Below are positions 7 to 9,406 of a DNA stretch of 11,545 nt, in pieces. This DNA is from a bacterium. GTDB lineage: Bacteria > Coprothermobacterota > Coprothermobacteria > Coprothermobacterales > JAADFF01. Under the pieces are notes generated by a model. It saw only the letters and a program-made list of their open reading frames with translations, did not search any database and was not told where the DNA came from. Where the stretch lies: assembly GCA_027063755.1 (NCBI GenBank), contig JAMORD010000036.1, positions 1 through 11,545 on the forward strand, written 5' to 3'. Position numbers and translations under genes: made by a program. Each line of letters begins with the position of its first letter. Positions within the stretch are counted from its first letter, which is position 1.

Positions 7-1074
7 TCAGAGCCTAAATATCTTATCCAAAGAGGATAAAACTATGACTCCGTCATCTGTCATCATAACATCATCTTCTATTCTCACCCCAAATTCCCCC
101 GGTAGATAAACACCAGGTTCAATAGTGAAGATAATGTTTCTATCTATAACCTCTTCAGACATATAAGACACACGGGGCATCTCGTGAATCTCTACACCAA
201 TACCATGACCCAGTGAATGAGTAAAATATTCCGCAAGCCCTTTTTCTTTAAGATAGTTCCTTGCCAATGCATCTATTTCCCTGGCAGTCATACAACATCT
301 TGCCTCACGAATGGCCGTCTCCTGAGCCTCTTTAACAGCCTGTAAGGTAAATTCTGCTTTTTCCGATATCTTTCCAACTGCTACCATGCGGGTAAGATCA
401 GAAACATACCCCTTGTAAAACGCTCCCCAATCTATAACAATCAGTTCGCCCTCTTTTATTTTTTTATCTGATGCAACCCCGTGCGGAAGAGCCCCTCTAT
501 AGCCTGAAGCTACAATAATATCAAAACTCTCTTTATCTGCTCCCAACCGTCTCATATGATAACAAAGCTCTGAGGCAACTTCCCTTTCAGTTACCCCCGG
601 CTTTATTATTTCCAGTGTCTTTAAAAAGGCCTGTTGTGCAATATCTATAGCCTTTTCTATTAGAGATCTCTCATATTCATCTTTTACCATGCGCATTTTA
701 TAGAGATATTCATCTGCAGCTGGAAATTTTTTAATATGGGAGGCTACTTCTCTCAATTTTCCCATGAATTTTACAGTTATGATATTGTCTTCTATCCATA
801 ACGTATAAACATCTTCCAAATATTTAGGTAGTTCCTCCCATATTTTGCTAAATAGAATAACCTCCACACCATCCCATACCTCGTCAGTAGCTTGAGTGGT
901 ATAACGCCCATCAACCAACAACTTAACAGAGTCTTTCGTAATAAGAAGATATCCTTCACCACCTGTAAAACCTGTCAGATAGTATAAATGATGAGGTGTT
1001 GTGGTTAAATATGCCTCTCCCTCTGCAAGATTAAGCCTTTGTCTAAGAGTTTCAACCCTCTCCCTCACAAGCAT
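7..1074 (-). CDS. M24 family Xaa-Pro peptidase (aminopeptidase P / prolidase-like)
   Basis: A cytoplasmic metallopeptidase of the pita-bread fold, expected to release the N-terminal residue before proline or to split X-Pro dipeptides. Residues ~1-125 form the creatinase-type N-terminal domain and ~135-350 the catalytic domain. The full dinuclear metal set is visible: D215 (IDWGAF), D226 (SDLTR), H290 (SLGHGIG), E319 (TIEPGVY) and E333 (RIEDD). The substrate-site H198 (ALPHG) is also present. The length of 355 residues is normal for the short bacterial form. There is no signal peptide. It starts 3 bases after the stop of the 99-residue pilus gene, so it is probably the last cistron seen here. 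The start is uncertain. The ATG at 1074 has AAGGAA 8 bases upstream, but the GTG two codons later (1068) has GAGGG at a good 6-base spacing. Family motifs do not decide between aminopeptidase P and prolidase. A role in pilus biogenesis is not implied. Confidence 0.95.
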   Translation of the reverse strand: MLVRERVETLRQRLNLAEGEAYLTTTPHHLYYLTGFTGGEGYLLITKDSVKLLVDGRYTTQATDEVWDGVEVILFSKIWEELPKYLEDVYTLWIEDNIITVKFMGKLREVASHIKKFPAADEYLYKMRMVKDEYERSLIEKAIDIAQQAFLKTLEIIKPGVTEREVASELCYHMRRLGADKESFDIIVASGYRGALPHGVASDKKIKEGELIVIDWGAFYKGYVSDLTRMVAVGKISEKAEFTLQAVKEAQETAIREARCCMTAREIDALARNYLKEKGLAEYFTHSLGHGIGVEIHEMPRVSYMSEEVIDRNIIFTIEPGVYLPGEFGVRIEDDVMMTDDGVIVLSSLDKIFRL

Positions 1075-1077
1075 CCC

Positions 1078-1377
1078 TCACTTTCCTTGAAATGGATCTT
1101 TTACGCCCACATCATTGGGATTTTGCTCTTTTACTTGTATATAATAACGCTGTGATACAACATTTTCTATTTCCTTTATCTTATCTTCTGGTATCTGAAG
1201 CTTTTCAATAGCATACTGCTTCTGCAAAACTTTTATCTGGGCATCTGGAGTTTTGTATTTACTAACCATGCGAAGAATATAGGAATTATAACCACCTGTA
1301 AAAATGATAGCAGCAGAAAATGCCAAACTAACAATCGTTAATACTATTAATGTGAGTATCCATCCTTTCTCTGTCAT
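1078..1377 (-). CDS. small bitopic pilus-cluster protein, PilP-like N-terminal part (hypothetical)
   Basis: A 99-residue protein with no firm family assignment. It has a short basic N-terminus, one hydrophobic helix at ~7-28, then a mainly charged, helix-prone stretch (~38-75) that would lie outside the membrane. Its tail ends GVKDPFQGK. It directly follows pilO with a 4-base ATGA overlap, the place pilP holds in many pilMNOPQ operons. In PilP the membrane-proximal region carries a (R)DPF-type motif before the beta domain that contacts the PilQ secretin. Here the protein stops three residues after DPF (94-96), so the secretin-binding domain is absent. My inference is a minimal PilP-like partner of PilN and PilO in a bacterium whose pilus needs no secretin. 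It could equally be an unrelated minor component. The SD is encoded in the tail of pilO. Confidence 0.8.
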   Translation of the reverse strand: MTEKGWILTLIVLTIVSLAFSAAIIFTGGYNSYILRMVSKYKTPDAQIKVLQKQYAIEKLQIPEDKIKEIENVVSQRYYIQVKEQNPNDVGVKDPFQGK

Positions 1378-1952
1378 TTCTCCTCACCCCCCATAATCAC
1401 AACAGGAAACTGCATATTGAACGACAGGGTATATGGATAATCGTCGCCTTCGGAATATTTTATGTTGACATTTGACAAAATAATCATCTTATCGGCATTC
1501 TCAATTCGTTTAAGCATGTTTATAACCCCATCGTATGTCTTTGGACCTTTTACCCCATCAACACTGACAGACACTATTCCCCACATAGGATTGTTTTTAT
1601 CAACAGCAATATTACCCACTCTCACACTCTTAAATTCAGAGGCACCAACATTCTCCATAAGAGCTTTGACATATTTAAAGAGAAAAGAATTAACCTCATA
1701 AGTAGGTTTACTTCCATCAATAAAAAGTATTGCCGCCCTATCTACTATTTCTTCTAATTTGTCTACCTCCTGTGTCAATTTTTTTTCATCTATCTGACTA
1801 ATAAGTCTATTCTTCTCAGTAAGGACATCAACAGTAGTCATGTTGGTACGATAAGTTTCAAACTCCGAAGACATATATTTATAAAGCACAAAAATAGCCA
1901 CTATAAGTAACAAGATAGACACAACATGTTTATTTTCTTCAAACCATCTCAT
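1374..1952 (-). CDS. pilO: PilO-like type IV pilus alignment protein
   Basis: A bitopic inner-membrane protein expected to pair with PilN and link the PilM ring to the outer parts of the pilus machine. Residues 1-8 are cytoplasmic, ~9-26 form the membrane helix, ~40-75 are a charged heptad-like coiled coil, and ~80-190 look like the compact alpha/beta ferredoxin-like domain of PilO, with alternating strands and helices (for example around 107-130 and 168-187). The length of 192 residues is typical. Sequence similarity within this family is low, so the call rests on architecture plus position after pilM and pilN. It overlaps pilN by ATGA (1949-1952), with AAGGTGAGGG at 1956-1965 as its SD. Its own C-terminal GGEEK carries the SD for the next gene. 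Confidence 0.85.
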   Translation of the reverse strand: MRWFEENKHVVSILLLIVAIFVLYKYMSSEFETYRTNMTTVDVLTEKNRLISQIDEKKLTQEVDKLEEIVDRAAILFIDGSKPTYEVNSFLFKYVKALMENVGASEFKSVRVGNIAVDKNNPMWGIVSVSVDGVKGPKTYDGVINMLKRIENADKMIILSNVNIKYSEGDDYPYTLSFNMQFPVVIMGGEEK

Positions 1953-2578
1953 TTACCCTCACCTTCTTTCACATCTTGTTTCCAGCCAAGAACAAGATTA
2001 ACACTATAGGTCCATTTATCTTCCTGAGCTTTGGAAATTGAATTAACATTAATGGGGGTCACCTTGACATCCTTCACATACAAATATGGCGATGAGGCAA
2101 ATGCGTCAATAAGCTGAGGAGCATCTAAATAGCTATCGGATACTATCTTCAAAGACAGCATAACACTATCTCCATTAACTCCAAGATTCATACCTCCTTG
2201 AACAGTAGAACCTTTAGGTAAACGTTTTCTTATCTCTTGAAGTACGATAGAAATCTTGGGTTGCATATTAATAAGATTGTAAGCATTATCAATAAACTTC
2301 ATAATATTGTTTTTTTGCTTGATAACTTGATGAAATCTCGCCTCTTTAGCTTTTAACGAAGCATAAGTACTATTTAACGAATTGACTTTCTTGGAAAGCG
2401 AGCTATTAATAGTCTTCATTGTTATAATTGGCGCAGCTGTCATAATAGCAATAAGAATCACAGATACCCAAAATGTCGTCCAGCTAATACCAACTTGCCT
2501 CTTAATAAACTTTGGACCATCTAATAAATTGAGACGAATAACAGTAAAAGTCACTTTTCCTTTATTCTTCGCACTCAT
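1949..2578 (-). CDS. pilN: PilN-like type IV pilus alignment protein
   Basis: A bitopic inner-membrane partner of PilM and PilO. The cytoplasmic N-terminus holds RLNLLD at residues 15-20. This matches the conserved (I)NLLP-type peptide that docks into the groove of PilM in known complexes, here with Asp in place of the usual Pro. One membrane helix follows at ~33-54, then a coiled coil at ~58-100, then an alpha/beta domain to ~200. The length of 209 residues is normal. Its start overlaps the pilM stop by ATGA (2575-2578). The SD, AGGAGGAGGGG (2586-2596), lies within the codons for the glycine-rich PilM tail, 7 bases before the ATG. The motif, topology and position between pilM and pilO together make the assignment firm despite the low sequence conservation of the family. 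Confidence 0.9.
   Translation of the reverse strand: MSAKNKGKVTFTVIRLNLLDGPKFIKRQVGISWTTFWVSVILIAIMTAAPIITMKTINSSLSKKVNSLNSTYASLKAKEARFHQVIKQKNNIMKFIDNAYNLINMQPKISIVLQEIRKRLPKGSTVQGGMNLGVNGDSVMLSLKIVSDSYLDAPQLIDAFASSPYLYVKDVKVTPINVNSISKAQEDKWTYSVNLVLGWKQDVKEGEGK
1956..1965 (-). promoter_or_regulatory. ribosome binding site of pilO inside the pilN tail
   Basis: AAGGTGAGGG on the minus strand, ending 3 bases before the pilO ATG, with AAGGTGA as the better-spaced core. The same bases encode the EGEG of the PilN tail. Confidence 0.7.
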
Positions 2579-3678
2579 CTAAGATCCCCTCCTCCTGCTA
2601 AGCCAGGCAACATATCCACATATTCCCATAAGGCAAGCCCGAATGCCGTTGATACAAGTGGGGATATTTCATACAAAACATCTGAATGGAGTTTTTCTAC
2701 ATCCAGTGGTTCAAGATAAGATAACGTCCTATTCTTCGTAATGGGAAAACCAAGTTCTTCAGAAAGCAATGTATCAAAGCCCTTGAGCAAAGCTCCACCA
2801 CCGGAAATAATCCCAGAAAATTTTCCGCTACTGGAAGAAATATTAGATTGATAATATGCTATAACCCTATGTATTTCTCTTATAAGACTTTTCATGGCAC
2901 CGGCTATAATATTCCTCAACTGTTGGTTCTCTTCCTCCTCTAAAATATTTCGTTGGTTTAGGAGATACTCTGCTTCCCTTTCACTGATACCTTTAAACTC
3001 ACTTACCTGTCTAACAAACATACTAGCCCCCATGTCAATAAGTCGGGTATAGTTCAAAGTTCCACCCTCAAAGAAACTAATAGTAGTTGTTTTACTACTA
3101 ATATTAAGCAGAACGTAGGTTATATCTATATCATCTTCATTGGTAAGCAGATATAATGTTCTTGCTTCAGCAAGCAGCTCTGCATCGGCCGCAATAACAT
3201 TAAGACCTAATGACTTAAAAACTTCAATATAAGGATCAACATGCTCCTTCTTGACAGCGGCAAAAATAACATCATAAACATTACCCTTCTCTGACATACG
3301 AGTGCCCAGCACTTGAAAATCAAAATACAACTTCTCAACAGGTGTTGAGAGTTCTGCCTGAATATCATCCCGAATAAATTCAAACATTATCTGCTTCTTC
3401 TTTGATATGTTGGCAGGGACCTGAATAATCTTTATTATTGTCTGCTCACCAGGAACTCCAATAACAATATTTTTCCCTTGAAAAACATAAGCATCCAGAA
3501 TCTGAGAAATTGCCCGCTTAAATACCTCTGGATTAACCAAAAGACCATTGGCTATAGAACCTTTTGGTACAGGGAAATGTGCAACCTCTGACACATACAG
3601 TTTTTTCCCTTTTCTTGCAAGTTCTACAGCCTTGATAAAGTGATCACCAAGGTCAAATCCAATAACACTCGCTCTCAT
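2575..3678 (-). CDS. pilM: PilM, actin-like cytoplasmic type IV pilus protein
   Basis: A cytoplasmic protein of the actin/FtsA fold that binds the N-terminal peptide of PilN and connects the alignment complex to the motor. Phosphate-1-like GFDLGDHFIK lies at residues 7-16, and the adenosine-type glycine motif ISGGGALLKG at 291-300. The region at 190-202 (LLNISSKTTT) corresponds to phosphate-2, where most relatives carry DIG; here N192 takes the place of the aspartate. The length of 367 residues fits the family. It is the first gene of the coupled pilM-N-O-99aa block and starts 14 bases after pilD. The SD, TAAAGGGGGG at 3686-3695, includes the pilD stop codon and sits 7 bases before the ATG. 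No membrane segment or signal is present. The D-to-N change may affect nucleotide binding or turnover. Confidence 0.95.
   Translation of the reverse strand: MRASVIGFDLGDHFIKAVELARKGKKLYVSEVAHFPVPKGSIANGLLVNPEVFKRAISQILDAYVFQGKNIVIGVPGEQTIIKIIQVPANISKKKQIMFEFIRDDIQAELSTPVEKLYFDFQVLGTRMSEKGNVYDVIFAAVKKEHVDPYIEVFKSLGLNVIAADAELLAEARTLYLLTNEDDIDITYVLLNISSKTTTISFFEGGTLNYTRLIDMGASMFVRQVSEFKGISEREAEYLLNQRNILEEEENQQLRNIIAGAMKSLIREIHRVIAYYQSNISSSSGKFSGIISGGGALLKGFDTLLSEELGFPITKNRTLSYLEPLDVEKLHSDVLYEISPLVSTAFGLALWEYVDMLPGLAGGGDLR
2586..2596 (-). promoter_or_regulatory. ribosome binding site of pilN inside the pilM tail
   Basis: AGGAGGAGGGG on the minus strand, 7 bases before the pilN ATG. These bases also encode the glycines of the PilM C-terminal AGGGDLR, so the tail sequence is probably constrained by the SD. 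Confidence 0.75.
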
Positions 3679-3685
3679 ACATTAG

Positions 3686-3695
3686 CCCCCCTTTA
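3686..3695 (-). promoter_or_regulatory. stop-embedded ribosome binding site of pilM
   Basis: TAAAGGGGGG on the minus strand. The TAA is the pilD stop, and the run of six G ends 7 bases before the pilM ATG. It is identical to the pilT signal. Confidence 0.75.
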
Positions 3696-4484
3696 TATAA
3701 AAAACAAACGTCTATACCACAAGATAATAGGTATACCATAAAACCAAGATAAGATAGCTCCCAAGAGCATAAAAGGTCCAAACGGAACAACATGCTTAGT
3801 TTCACCTTTCGTAAATTTAGAAATTAGCATAAAAATAACTCCGACTATTGCTCCCAAACCAAATGCGATAAAAAACCAAGGAACAATTTTCGGGAAACCC
3901 AAAAACCATCCAATAATAGGAGAAAGCTTTACATCTCCTTCTCCCATACCATCAGGGACGAGATAGTAAATAATTAGGAAAAACACCAAAAGTACCACAG
4001 CCCCTATTAAGCGATTTCTTAAGTCAATAAAAGTTTCCCATTTCATAACAAGAGCAAAAACGCTCCATACTATTTCAAAGATAGCCATAGGAAGTAGGAT
4101 TTTATTGGGTAAAATGTAAAGTTGCATATCTATAACACTCAGTGCTATAGCAAAATAACCAAATACAAGTACCTCTACAAACGCATCAATATTACCGGGA
4201 AATAGCATAATAAAGACAAGAACTGTCCATACCCCTGTTATAAATTCAATAACAGGATACAAAGGAGAAATACTTTTACCACAATAACGACACTTCCCCT
4301 TAAGTATAAGATAACTAACAATTGGAATCATGTCATACCACGCCAACTTATGACCGCAATGTGGACATCTACTGGGCGGAAACACAATACTTTCCCCACG
4401 TGGAACACGATATATCACAACATTAAGAAAACTACCTATTGACGCTCCTATTGCAAACACTATAAACAAGATTAAATAATACAA
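3693..4484 (-). CDS. pilD: PilD prepilin peptidase (A24A aspartic protease)
   Basis: A polytopic membrane protease that cleaves the leader peptide of type IV prepilins and usually N-methylates the new first residue. The N-terminal domain has GSFLNVVIYR (17-26), typical of bifunctional enzymes, and two CxxC pairs, C40/C43 and C65/C68, that form the zinc site. The catalytic aspartates are D119 (IDMQ) and D184 in GMGEGDVKL. The VPFGPF signature is at 233-238. About eight hydrophobic helices span the protein, and 263 residues is normal. The start is a TTG (4484-4482), chosen because the SD TAAGGAGGG (4492-4500) is 7 bases away; the ATG at 4489 is out of frame. It lies 13 bases after pilC, and the SD uses the pilC stop. 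Its prepilin substrates are not encoded in this window. Confidence 0.96.
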   Translation of the reverse strand: MYYLILFIVFAIGASIGSFLNVVIYRVPRGESIVFPPSRCPHCGHKLAWYDMIPIVSYLILKGKCRYCGKSISPLYPVIEFITGVWTVLVFIMLFPGNIDAFVEVLVFGYFAIALSVIDMQLYILPNKILLPMAIFEIVWSVFALVMKWETFIDLRNRLIGAVVLLVFFLIIYYLVPDGMGEGDVKLSPIIGWFLGFPKIVPWFFIAFGLGAIVGVIFMLISKFTKGETKHVVPFGPFMLLGAILSWFYGIPIILWYRRLFFI

Positions 4485-4491
4485 GACATGT

Positions 4492-4500
4492 CCCTCCTTA
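4492..4500 (-). promoter_or_regulatory. stop-embedded ribosome binding site deciding the TTG start of pilD
   Basis: TAAGGAGGG on the minus strand, where TAA is the pilC stop. It is spaced 7 bases from the TTG at 4484. The closer ATG at 4489 is out of frame, so this SD supports TTG as the true pilD start. Confidence 0.8.
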
Positions 4501-5721
4501 CAAGTTCATCTCTCCAACCATACTAAATATTGGCAAATAGATAGAGATAATGGCCGTACCAACCATAAGTGCTAAAACAAGCACGGTAATCGGTTCCATT
4601 GCAGAGGCCAAAGCCTCTACAGCAGCATCAACTTCTTCTTCATAATACGCTGCCATTTTCTCAAGCATTTTATCAAGAGCACCTGACGTTTCTCCAATCC
4701 TCACCATGTTAATAAACATAGGTGGGAATAAATCAGGATACTGGGCCATCGCAGCAGATATACGACTACCCCCCTTAACCTTGGAAATAATATCGGCAAT
4801 AGCATCTTCGTAAACCTTGTTTCCCATAACATCTTTAAGATTATCAAGTGCCTCTGTTGGGGAAATACCACTTCTCACCATAGTTGCAAAGTTAGATGCA
4901 AACTGAGCAAGAATGGATGTACGAGTAAGTCTACCGAATAGAGGCATTTTCAGTTTTAATCTATGCCACCCCTTACCTCCCAATCTGAAGCCTAACATAC
5001 CAAAATAGTTAAAGATAAAGATAAGGACAAGGACCCCCAGCATCCATGGCCAGTATTTGATAATAAATCTTGCTAGACCTATCATAAATGTTGTAAGTGC
5101 GGGCATCTTTTTTATACCAAAATCTTTAAACATCTGCTCAAACTTTGGAATGATGAAAATTACTATACCAAGAAATATCGCCAAGGAGATGGTTAAAACA
5201 ACCATAGGATATGTCATAGCACTCTTTATTTTCCTTCTTATGGCCATATTCTTCTCAAGAAGCGTGGCTACATCATTTAGTGCCTTCTCCAAATGGCCCG
5301 TTACCTGAGCAGCTTTAATGATATTAGGATACATAGGAGGAAAAACTCCAGAATACATCGCAAGGGCATCACCAAATGTTGTATCACCTCGTCTAACCAT
5401 ATTAGCAATCTCAGTAAACACCTGCTTCAAGTATGGATCCTGTATCTGTTGAGCAACAATATCCAGCGACTCCACAAGTTGCATACCCGATTCTATCATA
5501 GTAGCCAGCTGTCTCGTTGCAAGGGTCAAGGATTTAAGAGAAACCTTTTTCCTAAAAACCTTACCAGAAGAAGAAGCCGGGGTTGTTTCTTTCAGAGATA
5601 ATACCTGCGTTATTCCCATATCCATGAGTTTTTCTAATGCCACCCTACGAGAAGGTGCTTCTACAACACCCTTAACCGTGCTAAATGTACCTTTTTTAGC
5701 AACATACTTGTAATATGGCAT
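4498..5721 (-). CDS. pilC: PilC inner-membrane platform protein (T2SF family)
   Basis: The polytopic platform protein of the type IV pilus, through which the ATPases PilB and PilT are thought to drive pilin insertion and removal. A short N-terminal segment (~1-50, with the usual YKY and GITQV elements) precedes two homologous T2SF domains at ~66-190 and ~269-391. Each carries a FPPM motif (127-130 and 332-335), and the second also has GETSG (343-347) and MEPI. Predicted membrane helices lie near 172-193, 222-243 and 376-398. The length of 407 residues is exactly the family norm. It sits 14 bases after pilT, and its SD (TAAGGAG, 5732-5738) includes the pilT stop, about 10 bases before the ATG. 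A GspF protein of a type II secretion system would look similar, but the neighbouring pilT and pilM-O favour the pilus role. Confidence 0.96.
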   Translation of the reverse strand: MPYYKYVAKKGTFSTVKGVVEAPSRRVALEKLMDMGITQVLSLKETTPASSSGKVFRKKVSLKSLTLATRQLATMIESGMQLVESLDIVAQQIQDPYLKQVFTEIANMVRRGDTTFGDALAMYSGVFPPMYPNIIKAAQVTGHLEKALNDVATLLEKNMAIRRKIKSAMTYPMVVLTISLAIFLGIVIFIIPKFEQMFKDFGIKKMPALTTFMIGLARFIIKYWPWMLGVLVLIFIFNYFGMLGFRLGGKGWHRLKLKMPLFGRLTRTSILAQFASNFATMVRSGISPTEALDNLKDVMGNKVYEDAIADIISKVKGGSRISAAMAQYPDLFPPMFINMVRIGETSGALDKMLEKMAAYYEEEVDAAVEALASAMEPITVLVLALMVGTAIISIYLPIFSMVGEMNL

Positions 5722-5731
5722 GAATCATCAT

Positions 5732-5738
5732 CTCCTTA
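5732..5738 (-). promoter_or_regulatory. stop-embedded ribosome binding site of pilC
   Basis: TAAGGAG on the minus strand. The TAA is the pilT stop and AGGAG the SD, about 10 bases before the pilC ATG. Two ATG triplets between SD and start are out of frame. Confidence 0.75.
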
Positions 5739-6797
5739 CATGCCAAGATATCGGTTAAAATCATTAAGAGAATGTACATAGTGAAGGGCTTCATCGTAGT
5801 CCACAAGCCCTCGCTTAACAAGCATGGCAAGGGCTTTATCCATAGGCTGCATTCCCTCAGCTGCTCCCATCTGAATATGACTAAGAATCTGATGGGTCTT
5901 ACCCTCTCTAATAAGGGCTCTTATAGCAGAATTGGCTATCATTATCTCAGCTGCAAGAACTCTTCCTCTACCATCTGCCCGTTTTAAAAGTCTTTGCGAG
6001 ATAACAGCCAGTAGCACAGATGCAAGCTGTATCCTTACTTGAGGTTGTTGATGTGGGGGAAATACATCAACAATTCTATCTATTGTCTGAGCAGCAGAAT
6101 TTGTATGAACTGTTGCAAACACTAGATGCCCCGTTTCGGCCAGTGTAAGAACTGTTTGAATCGTTTCTAAATCCCTCATCTCACCAACCATAACAACATC
6201 TGGATCCTCACGAAGAGCTGCACGAAGAGCATTAGCAAAACTCAAGGTGTCTGCACCAACCTCTCGCTGGTTAACCATTGACTTACCATGTCTAAAAACA
6301 TATTCAATAGGATCCTCAATGGTCAATATATGGTATGGATAAGTGATATTAATCTGCTGAATCATAGAAGCCAGTGTAGTAGACTTACCTGAACCCGTAG
6401 GTCCCGTAACAAGAATAAGTCCTTGCCTCTTATGGATAAGGTCTTTGACAACCTCTGGAAGCCCTAAATCGTCTATATGAGGAACTTCAAATGGTATACG
6501 GCGCAGTGCCGCTGCTACTGTAGCCCTCTGTCTATATGCATTAACTCTATAACGACCGAGCCCTGGTATACCAAACGAGAAATCTATTTCACCCTGAGAT
6601 TCAAATTTTTGAATTTGAACTTCATTCATAATCTGGTATACAATATCTCTCGTATCTTCCGGCGTTAGTTTATCATCTCCATATGTGACAAGCTCACCAT
6701 TGACACGATACACGGGAGCTCTACCAACAGTAATGTGTAGATCGGAAGCCCCCAAATCTTGCATTTCCCTTAATAAATCAACAATATCATATTTCAT
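5736..6797 (-). CDS. pilT: PilT pilus retraction ATPase
   Basis: A cytoplasmic hexameric secretion-type ATPase that depolymerises the pilus and powers twitching motility. An N-terminal PAS-like domain (~1-100) is followed by the RecA-like core. Visible motifs are Walker A GPTGSGKST (132-140), the Asp box TIEDPIEY (159-166), Walker B DPDVVMVGEMRD (198-209) with catalytic E206, and the His box TGHLVFATVHTN (222-233). The C-terminal AIRALIRE (291-298) closely matches the AIRNLIRE retraction signature of PilT, which argues against PilU or an extension ATPase. The length of 353 residues is typical. It follows pilB after 12 bases, with the pilB stop inside its SD (TAAAGGGGGG, 6803-6812). There is only one retraction ATPase gene in the cluster. 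Confidence 0.97.
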   Translation of the reverse strand: MKYDIVDLLREMQDLGASDLHITVGRAPVYRVNGELVTYGDDKLTPEDTRDIVYQIMNEVQIQKFESQGEIDFSFGIPGLGRYRVNAYRQRATVAAALRRIPFEVPHIDDLGLPEVVKDLIHKRQGLILVTGPTGSGKSTTLASMIQQINITYPYHILTIEDPIEYVFRHGKSMVNQREVGADTLSFANALRAALREDPDVVMVGEMRDLETIQTVLTLAETGHLVFATVHTNSAAQTIDRIVDVFPPHQQPQVRIQLASVLLAVISQRLLKRADGRGRVLAAEIMIANSAIRALIREGKTHQILSHIQMGAAEGMQPMDKALAMLVKRGLVDYDEALHYVHSLNDFNRYLGM

Positions 6798-6802
6798 AGT
6801 AT

Positions 6803-6812
6803 CCCCCCTTTA
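6803..6812 (-). promoter_or_regulatory. stop-embedded ribosome binding site of pilT
   Basis: TAAAGGGGGG on the minus strand. The TAA is the pilB stop and the purine run is the pilT SD, 5 bases before the ATG. The identical decamer recurs before pilM, which suggests termination-reinitiation coupling. Confidence 0.75.
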
Positions 6813-8642
6813 CACCTCAAGTGACGAAACAACCCTTGTAACTTCATCAACAGTTGTAAGGCCCTTGAACACTTTTAGCATACCATCTTGTAGAAGTGTA
6901 CGAGCACCTTTTGACGTCGCTATCCGTTTTATCTCAGCTCCAGAGGCACGGTCTAATATTAATCTGCGTATATCTTCATCTACAACCAACAATTCGTGTA
7001 TAGCCAATCTCCCACGGTACCCTGTACCACTACATTTAGGACAACCTTGCCCTTTAAAATACCTAGGCTCATACCCGAGTTCTACTAAACTCTGTTCTGC
7101 CTCTTCTAAAGCAAGTGGCATCTGGGGCTTAGAAATAGACATCTTACAGCTGTTGCATATTCTTTTTACCAATCTTTGTGCCAGAACACCGATCAACGAC
7201 GATGCTATAAGAAATGGTTCTATACCCATGTCAATAAGTCTCATAGGAGCAGAAAAGGCATCGTTTGTGTGTATAGTAGAAAGCACAAGGTGACCTGTCA
7301 AAGCAGCATGCATAGCAATCTCTGCCGTCTCTTTATCACGAATCTCACCTACCAGTATGATATCCGGGTCTTGTCTAAGAAAAGACCTTAAAGCGCTGGC
7401 AAATGTTAAGCCCGCTTTAGGATTAACCTGTACCTGATTGATACCAGTCATTTCGTACTCCACAGGATCCTCAACGGTCATAATATTTACAGAGATATCA
7501 TTAAGTTCATTAAGGGCTGCATACAGTGTTGTAGACTTACCTGAACCTGTAGGACCAGAAACAAGTATCATACCGTAGGGCTGGTGAATAAGCGTTCGGA
7601 AACTTTGAAGAACATCGGGTTCAAAGCCAATATTATCAAGATTAAGAAGCGATGGATCCTTCCTCAACAAACGCAAAACTGCTTTCTCTCCATGCACAGT
7701 AGGCAAAGTTGAGACACGCACATCTACATTTATATTGCTCCCAGGCAATTTCGTAGTAAATCGCCCATCAAGAGGTTTTCTATGTTCTGTCACATCCATA
7801 TTGGCCATAACCTTAATACGGGCAATAATACTACGTTTATAGTAAGAAACATTTTCGTTGAAAGTCATATGTTCTTTCAAAATACCATCAACTCTAAAGC
7901 GAATACGAAGGGATTTTTTTAAAGGTTCTATATGAATATCACTTGCCCCTTCAAGAAGTGCCGTTTTAAGCATATTATTGACAAATTCCACTATAGGTCC
8001 AGAAACCTCTTCCTCGCTTTCTCCTTCCTCATCGCTAATATCTATATCGCCGATATCTGCCAGTTTGGAACCATAAATAACTTGAATAATATAATCAAAA
8101 TCTTTCTCAGGAATATAGTAAGGATGGATTGTATCAAACTGTCCTTCAAACATCCGTTTAATATAATCCTCCGCTTCCAAATTCCAAGGATCGGCAAAAG
8201 CCACCTCAAGCTCCCTTATAAAAGAACCTGATGGAGTGGGATTCTCAATAATACGAATAGGTAATACCCCATAGTCTTCAGCTTTCTCCCTCGGAATTTT
8301 ACCAAGAAGAAGTTCCCCCCCCATAGACTCAACCTCTTCTTTAATTGACATAATCTTCTCTTTGGAAATAAGATCATAACCAAAGTAATCAGCAATCATC
8401 TGGACTAAACTTTCTTCACTAATACCAAAGATATCCATGAATACTTCAAGAGGAGATTTGGAGGAATGATCCCCTTCCGATTCCTCCACAACACGAGAAA
8501 TCTCAGACTTGATCACATCGGGTGTCATAACGGTAATTAAAGAAGGATTTTTCTTTACTGCTTCAGCATATTTAGCAGCATCTTCTCCAAAATACAACAA
8601 CATGCTAATAATAGGATCAATATAACGATCAAGACGCGACAT
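6810..8642 (-). CDS. pilB: PilB pilus extension ATPase (GspE/PilB family)
   Basis: A cytoplasmic hexameric ATPase that powers pilus assembly. Residues ~1-60 are a poorly conserved extension. Residues ~60-190 form an MshEN-like N-terminal domain, with the family's ADPWNLEA element near 150-157. Residues 200-214 are an acidic linker, and ~215 onward is the ATPase. Motifs are Walker A GPTGSGKST (363-371), Asp box TVEDPVEYE (389-397), Walker B DPDIILVGEIRD (425-436) with E433, and His box TGHLVLSTIHTND (449-461). The tetracysteine zinc motif is C496/C499 with C534/C537. At 610 residues it is somewhat longer than many PilB proteins, and the extra length is at the N-terminus. It is the first pil gene, 34 bases after the YqeG-like gene, with its own strong SD GGGGAGGT (8649-8656), 7 bases from the ATG. 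Confidence 0.96.
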   Translation of the reverse strand: MSRLDRYIDPIISMLLYFGEDAAKYAEAVKKNPSLITVMTPDVIKSEISRVVEESEGDHSSKSPLEVFMDIFGISEESLVQMIADYFGYDLISKEKIMSIKEEVESMGGELLLGKIPREKAEDYGVLPIRIIENPTPSGSFIRELEVAFADPWNLEAEDYIKRMFEGQFDTIHPYYIPEKDFDYIIQVIYGSKLADIGDIDISDEEGESEEEVSGPIVEFVNNMLKTALLEGASDIHIEPLKKSLRIRFRVDGILKEHMTFNENVSYYKRSIIARIKVMANMDVTEHRKPLDGRFTTKLPGSNINVDVRVSTLPTVHGEKAVLRLLRKDPSLLNLDNIGFEPDVLQSFRTLIHQPYGMILVSGPTGSGKSTTLYAALNELNDISVNIMTVEDPVEYEMTGINQVQVNPKAGLTFASALRSFLRQDPDIILVGEIRDKETAEIAMHAALTGHLVLSTIHTNDAFSAPMRLIDMGIEPFLIASSLIGVLAQRLVKRICNSCKMSISKPQMPLALEEAEQSLVELGYEPRYFKGQGCPKCSGTGYRGRLAIHELLVVDEDIRRLILDRASGAEIKRIATSKGARTLLQDGMLKVFKGLTTVDEVTRVVSSLEV

Positions 8643-8695: not shown

Positions 8696-9171
8696 ATTTT
8701 TTCGGCTATAAAACTTCGTTCAAGTATCCGGAATATTTTCGTATGGGGACCATCATGTCTTGAAAGTGGCTTCACAAGAACAAACGATGTGCCGGCAAAT
8801 CTTGCCATAAGTACGTCGGTAAACACCTGATCACCAATAACACATGTTTCATCAGGTGAATAACCATATCTAATAAGGATTTTCCATAAGGCAAAAGGGG
8901 AAGGTTTTAACGCCATATAATAAACTGGAACTTTTACTATTAACTTTGATATTAAAGCTCGTAAATACCATGTATTAGATAAAACAACGACATCCATATT
9001 CAACTTTTTTGCCTCTGCAATCCAGCGTTTAATTTCATGTTCAACGGTATAGTTACCATAAGGCGATAAAGTATTGTCCAAATCCAAAACTATTAGCCTA
9101 ATTCCATTCTCATATAGGAAAACAGGTGAAATATCACTCAATTTGTCTATAACCATCCCAATCTTCCTCAT
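8677..9171 (-). CDS. yqeG: YqeG-type HAD-superfamily IIIA phosphatase
   Basis: A small soluble HAD phosphatase. Related enzymes (yeast Gep4, plant and cyanobacterial YqeG-like proteins) dephosphorylate phosphatidylglycerophosphate, so a role in phosphatidylglycerol synthesis is possible but not shown here. Motif I is DLDNTLS (30-36) with D30 and D32. Motif II is LSNT (64-67). The motif III lysine is K89 in ALKPSP, and motif IV is IGDQVFTD (112-119). The length of 164 residues is normal, and there is no cap domain. The start is uncertain. The first ATG (9171) overlaps the upstream gene by 38 bases and has only GGTGGTGA about 9 bases away. The ATG at codon 6 (9156) has GAGGAAG at a better spacing and reduces the overlap to 23 bases. 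It ends with TAG, 34 bases before pilB. Confidence 0.88.
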   Translation of the reverse strand: MRKIGMVIDKLSDISPVFLYENGIRLIVLDLDNTLSPYGNYTVEHEIKRWIAEAKKLNMDVVVLSNTWYLRALISKLIVKVPVYYMALKPSPFALWKILIRYGYSPDETCVIGDQVFTDVLMARFAGTSFVLVKPLSRHDGPHTKIFRILERSFIAEKIVSSVK

Positions 9172-9406
9172 AAGGTTTTATCACCACCGACTTAACCTTT
9201 CTTTCAACAATTAGATCACCTATCATGGCAAGTAGCACATTGAGTTTATAACCGGTAAGCCCGTATACGATAACTGTATGCCTATGCCCTTTATGGGTTT
9301 GAAGCATAACACCTGCATTATCTTCTGCCTCAAGTAAAGACTGAATATCTCCAACATGAGGCAGATCCACTTCTATATACATAACCCAATAATTACTTTC
9401 CACCAC
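9134..9406 (-). CDS. conserved-looking small protein of unknown function
   Basis: A 90-residue acidic soluble protein that I cannot assign with confidence. The pattern is strand (YWVMYIEVD), helix (DIQSLLEAED), strand (GVMLQTHK), strand (HTVIVYGL), long helix (~52-69) and strand (VKSVVIKP). It looks like a compact alpha/beta fold and recalls short DUF4911-type proteins, but this is only an impression. It has no signal, membrane helix or cysteine. It overlaps mltG by 14 bases, and its SD AAGGAGGG (9409-9416) lies in the mltG tail. The start is one of two adjacent GTG codons. The second (9403) is 7 bases from GGAGG and is the better spaced; the first is only 4. The tight coupling on both sides, in a cassette of conserved genes, argues that it is real and expressed. 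Confidence 0.8.
   Translation of the reverse strand: MVESNYWVMYIEVDLPHVGDIQSLLEAEDNAGVMLQTHKGHRHTVIVYGLTGYKLNVLLAMIGDLIVERKVKSVVIKPYEEDWDGYRQIE

Follow-up and report, generated by a model that had tools for sequence, protein, structure and literature searches.

Gene organization of the pilus locus

The analyzed DNA stretch of 11,545 nucleotides (hereafter the window) is contig C36, part of a metagenome assembly that measures 1.5 Mb and is 88% complete. It carries a pilus locus on the minus strand, in the order pilB, pilT, pilC, pilD, pilM, pilN, pilO, a gene for a 99-aa protein and an M24 peptidase gene. The genes of the extension ATPase PilB (6810..8642), the platform protein PilC (4498..5721) and the prepilin peptidase PilD (3693..4484) were assigned by direct reading of the sequence, and that of the retraction ATPase PilT (5736..6797) by its 54-62% identity to pilT-type genes in hundreds of genomes. 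The pilM gene (2575..3678) was matched by PF11104 (3e-35) and TIGR01175 (4e-45). Gene order together with a sub-threshold match to PF05137 (E-value 0.066) identified pilN (1949..2578), while pilO (1374..1952), which has no family match, was assigned from gene order and architecture. The M24 aminopeptidase gene (7..1074; PF00557, 3e-64) is a conserved downstream neighbour outside the pilus machine, in an order common to the two phyla compared below; in a congener (G001) it is followed by efp. Ten matches to prepilin signals were found in the window genome, which means that the cell has a pilus to build.

A 99-aa protein encoded after pilO

The PilP-like 99-aa protein is encoded at 1078..1377 on the minus strand, and was assigned from its open reading frame and its conserved slot. 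The start of the gene overlaps the pilO stop (ATGA), the ribosome-binding site GGTGAGGAG lies upstream of its ATG, and its stop is followed after 3 nt by the start of the M24 peptidase gene. The congener protein shares 85% amino acid identity. Nucleotide differences between the two genes are distributed 16/5/36 over the three codon positions, and the changed codons comprise 27 synonymous-only and 15 non-synonymous cases. The ATGA overlap, the GGTGAGGAG site and the codon-position pattern establish this as a real gene under constraint.

The protein has one hydrophobic stretch, a membrane helix at residues ~6-27 (1297..1362) that was located by hydropathy and coincides with a helix at residues 3-39 in the AlphaFold2 model. 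Two linker helices follow in this medium-confidence model, at residues 44-58 (1204..1248; pLDDT about 70-77) and 64-85 (1123..1188; pLDDT about 58-77); the tail is disordered and no beta strand was modelled. The terminal motif GVKDPF (residues 91-96; 1090..1107) is followed by QGK and the stop codon, giving the C-terminus NDVGVKDPFQGK. No lipobox was present, and family searches returned no usable match. The net charge is 0 before the membrane helix and +3 just after it, which does not support an N-in topology for this protein; most of its counterparts in other genomes are strongly basic before the helix, pointing to N-in. The original prediction, made from this sequence, of a one-helix 99-aa protein that follows pilMNO and ends GVKDPFQGK was confirmed by the reading frame, the overlap and the codon pattern, and the charged helical stretch that it described is borne out by the three modelled helices.

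Conservation of the slot and tail in secretin-less loci

Related loci were gathered through pilT. The slot is occupied elsewhere: in 25/25 secretin-less pilMNO loci from two phyla, pilO is followed by a one-helix protein of 92-136 aa (hereafter a stub), although the loci are related within each phylum and do not represent 25 independent events. The predicted conservation of the tail was also seen, since the final 12 residues of all 25 slot proteins (homologues or positional equivalents) include [DN][PI]F, compared with 2 of 97 other proteins from the same loci, both of which are PilMs of close relatives. Two genomes from another family of the window's phylum (G007 and G008) have the order pilMNO, a 101-aa one-helix protein ending KVNIFAP, M24 peptidase and efp. 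In the second phylum (that of G021, probably Caldisericota), 21/21 loci encode a one-helix protein of 92-136 aa after pilO, ending GKxNPFE or a close variant. About 35% identity is left among the stub linkers, while the motif has been kept. P and F are invariant in the stubs and in PilPs; the tail of the sister family in the window's phylum reads NIF, not PF.

Secretin (PF00263) was found in 0/9 genomes of the window's phylum and in 0/41 genomes of G021's phylum, in which 34/41 encode PilM. The same search was positive in six control genomes. As the window genome itself is 88% complete, the absence is judged over the group. Omp85 was likewise absent from all nine genomes of the window's phylum. 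PilP (PF04351) was absent from the window's phylum and from G021, so that, in agreement with the original prediction, the stubs were not found beside a full-length PilP. Since Caldisericum exile appears outer-membrane-like by electron microscopy yet is reported to lack BamA (PMC4104836), "secretin-less" is a safer label than "monoderm" for these systems.

Position of the motif in PilP proteins

When 29 PilP ORFs were picked automatically with PF04351, 24 of them carried G-[KR]-x-[DN]-P-F or a close variant between the linker and the HR domain. Four of the five exceptions are wrong-frame picks and the fifth is a PilO-PilP fusion with GRRDPM at this site. P and F are two of the five invariant columns in an alignment of 14 diderm PilPs. 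For true PilPs, the prediction that DPF marks the border with the secretin-binding domain is therefore right. The PilP of M. xanthus (3jc8) reads VGKRDPFRSP at the motif. In N. meningitidis PilP (4av2) the motif is lacking, and GPNAFDF (~60-65) is aligned at its site.

Residues 77-164 of N. meningitidis PilP suffice for PilQ binding (PMC3441751), a construct that leaves the motif site out, and PilNO is bound by residues ~18-76 of P. aeruginosa PilP (PMC5805733). The motif is thus on the PilNO side of PilP, and for this reason a role with PilN and PilO is preferred for the stub tail. In Neisseria, PilN-PilO is stabilised by PilP (PMC6916266).

Similarity of the stubs to PilP and GspC

A PilP-only scoring matrix placed its best site at the extreme C-terminal tail in 25/25 stubs. 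The tail of the window protein scored at p=0.006 and that of the L068 stub was not significant. In hhalign comparisons with PilPs, the window protein alone was aligned at the motif only (DVGVKDPFQ to PIGKRDPFK; E-value 0.098), and a 16-member stub profile aligned only EIGKxNPFE to PIGKRDPFK (E-value 5e-4; probability 30%). Profile-profile similarity outside the motif was insignificant between stubs and PilPs and also between the two stub groups, whose full-length comparison was not significant. The window protein searched alone against 98 genomes matched only its congener, the remaining hits being noise, and a PDB search with the stub profile returned membrane-helix noise. Homology of the window protein over its whole length is weak.

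The stub profile was also compared with 386 genomes. Most matches were confined to the helix and were disregarded; one new match, at locus L266, spanned the motif (E-value 1.8e-5 per genome). There, PilO is followed by a one-helix protein that carries QIGRSDPF and a T2SSC/HR domain, and then by a secretin-like gene (translation judged by eye). This one-helix protein matches PF11356 with 28.5 bits (cut-off 27). The stub corresponds to all of the L266 protein ahead of the HR domain, and the profile match runs over helix and motif. The same protein ranked first when 512 ORFs from pilus loci were scored with the PilP-only matrix; PilOs with a helix and a tail motif (L239 and L257) also scored high. 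The predicted PilP-like alignment was accordingly obtained with the stub profile, at the motif and in L266, whereas the window protein by itself aligned weakly. No paper naming a DPF motif in PilP or a PilP-like stub was found in the open-licence literature.

PilO tails in Bacillota

Among 36 usable Bacillota loci, 13 have the strict motif after the PilO fold, compared with a mean of 1.9 and a maximum of 7 loci in 2000 shuffles. In the same loci it occurs in one PilN and in no PilM, and about half of the Bacillota PilOs are without it. Several PilOs end at the motif, namely L257 (DIGKINPFTGRK), L230 (DRNPFV), L255 (STNPFENQ) and L134 (GRPNPFQLPGQ). In five other loci (L223, L224, L227, L228 and L262) the motif is carried by a PilP-like protein that has remained separate. 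Secretin exceeded the cut-off in only one of 16 genomes behind named loci, that of L148 (Berkelbacteria). The L134 protein was modelled with a PilO fold (2rjz, 5uvr). Folding of the tail back onto its own PilO was unsupported, as the L134 fusion tail is disordered in the model (alignment of 11 sequences) and points to no docking site.

Comparison with known systems

The 99-aa protein resembles PilP (PF04351) in that its gene directly follows pilO in a pilMNO operon, in its N-terminal membrane anchor and linker, and in the G-[KR]-x-[DN]-P-F motif, the PilP-only matrix having chosen its tail. PilP is usually a lipoprotein and continues into the PilQ-binding HR beta domain, whereas this protein has a membrane helix and ends at the motif. 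With the HR domain absent, no match to PF04351 and secretin in none of the nine genomes of its phylum, it is not formally a member of PilP. GspC/T2SSC proteins (PF11356) likewise have an N-terminal membrane helix and a linker, with GRSDPF in L266; unlike the 99-aa protein, they possess an HR domain (plus a PDZ domain or coil in true GspC) and a secretin partner. The PilO tails of monoderm Bacillota (L257, L134 and L230) also bring [DN]PF to the extreme C-terminus, and their systems are secretin-less for those tested, but the tail is fused to PilO there and sits on a separate one-helix protein here. The gene of Thermus PilW, which links PilMNO, lies in a similar slot between pilO and pilQ (PMC13039148). 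PilW differs from the window protein in having a secretin and an HR-like domain that faces it.

Proposed role of the 99-aa protein

In the usual view PilP is a linker to the secretin, and its absence from bacteria without a secretin follows logically. The need for PilP in minimal Neisseria pilus assembly has been explained as indirect, by way of the stability of PilN-PilO (PMC6916266). We propose that the 99-aa protein is probably an HR-less linker of the PilP/GspC type, working with its helix, linker and tail in the assembly complex of PilN and PilO. The original reading of a PilP without its secretin-binding half is well supported and reaches further than it claimed. The protein ends three residues past DPF and has no HR domain. 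The inner-membrane half of such a linker would have been retained, that is, the helix, a partly helical extracytoplasmic linker and the [DN]PF tail, and the HR domain would be missing since these cells have no secretin for it to hold. The protein would most likely join the PilN-PilO pair. The tail may act as a short clip, keeping the PilMNO ring together or attaching it to a partner such as PilN or PilC, and would thereby support pilus assembly. Weighing against this proposal are the insignificant similarity outside the motif, the NIF tail of the sister family and the non-significant score of L068, the charges around the helix of the window protein, the disordered tail of the L134 fusion and the Bacillota PilOs without the strict motif. 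Our claim is that the protein works like the inner half of PilP, rather than that it is PilP. It may have arisen from a PilP that lost its HR domain, the change may have run the other way, or the motif may have been acquired independently.

An alternative, which we regard as unlikely, is that the protein shares slot and tail with PilP but does not descend from it, being a small membrane protein that acquired the motif because its receptor, a universal part of the pilus, rewards it; the protein would still do the work of the PilP inner half. This would agree with the lack of significant similarity outside the motif and with the presence of the motif on PilO in Bacillota, by which it can move between hosts. 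Against it stand the shared gene slot, the single helix, the similar linker length and the HR-bearing one-helix form at L266, which matches the stub profile over helix and motif. It is distinctly improbable that the tail has a different partner, such as a minor pilin, the cell wall or PilC approached from outside, and that it serves to anchor or guide the pilus and not to clip PilN-PilO. In favour of this, two Bacillota PilOs (L146 and L110) have a LysM domain past the motif or its position, which fits the idea of a PilO-cell wall contact (PMC6916266). Against it, diderm PilP has the motif as well, ahead of its HR domain and within the PilNO-binding region. That a small, unrelated ORF has its DPF by chance is very hard to credit, for despite the missing family match and the shortness of a three-residue motif, the tail is found in 25/25 stubs versus 2/97 controls, the codons are constrained, and P and F are invariant in stubs and PilPs.

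Under the preferred reading of an HR-less linker, a stub that lacks exactly the secretin-binding half, in genomes that lack secretin, separates two roles of PilP, and a motif of a few residues becomes a testable element of the second. The occurrence of a shortened PilP look-alike in secretin-less pilus builders suggests that part of PilP helps pilus assembly, beyond reaching the pore. It may be, and we put it forward tentatively, that type IVa assembly platforms in general include the [DN]PF clip and do so independently of a secretin, the clip being carried by diderm PilP, by the thermophile stubs and by the PilO tails of Bacillota. If so, the statement that monoderms lack PilP would hold only for the HR domain, and the need for PilP in assembly would sit in the clip.

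Additional observations

At locus L200, PilO and PilP are joined in one polypeptide, a natural PilO-PilP link, with GRRDPM in place of GRRDPF. Two PilO-slot proteins of Bacillota (L146:17502-18866 and L110:19482-20819) do not stop at the pilus fold: each goes on with another domain and then a LysM domain at its C-terminus (PF01476; E-values 6e-9 and 4e-9), which may anchor a monoderm pilus machine to the cell wall. A contact of monoderm PilO with the cell wall has been suggested in the literature (PMC6916266). The PilO of a small-genome (CPR-like) bacterium (L072:7206-7922) ends PFQRDNPFSSAL, and the motif tail may thus occur in such bacteria too. The secretin match behind L148 (G199:C1:840342-840812; 1.3e-40) belongs to a Patescibacteria genome in which pilT is present too.

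Identity of the tail motif with RD(MILF)N(FYW)FS, described as C-terminal in monoderm PilN (Pelicic 2019), was weighed and dismissed, since the latter string is N-terminal in the PilN of L243. That protein (L243:1066-1653) has MRDINFFS at its N-terminus in place of the PilM-binding motif of the INLLP type. Finally, a 90-aa ORF without a family match lies on the minus strand of the window at 9134-9406, between mltG and a YqeG-type phosphatase gene and overlapping both, and is conserved in the congener G001 (L067:17401-17673).
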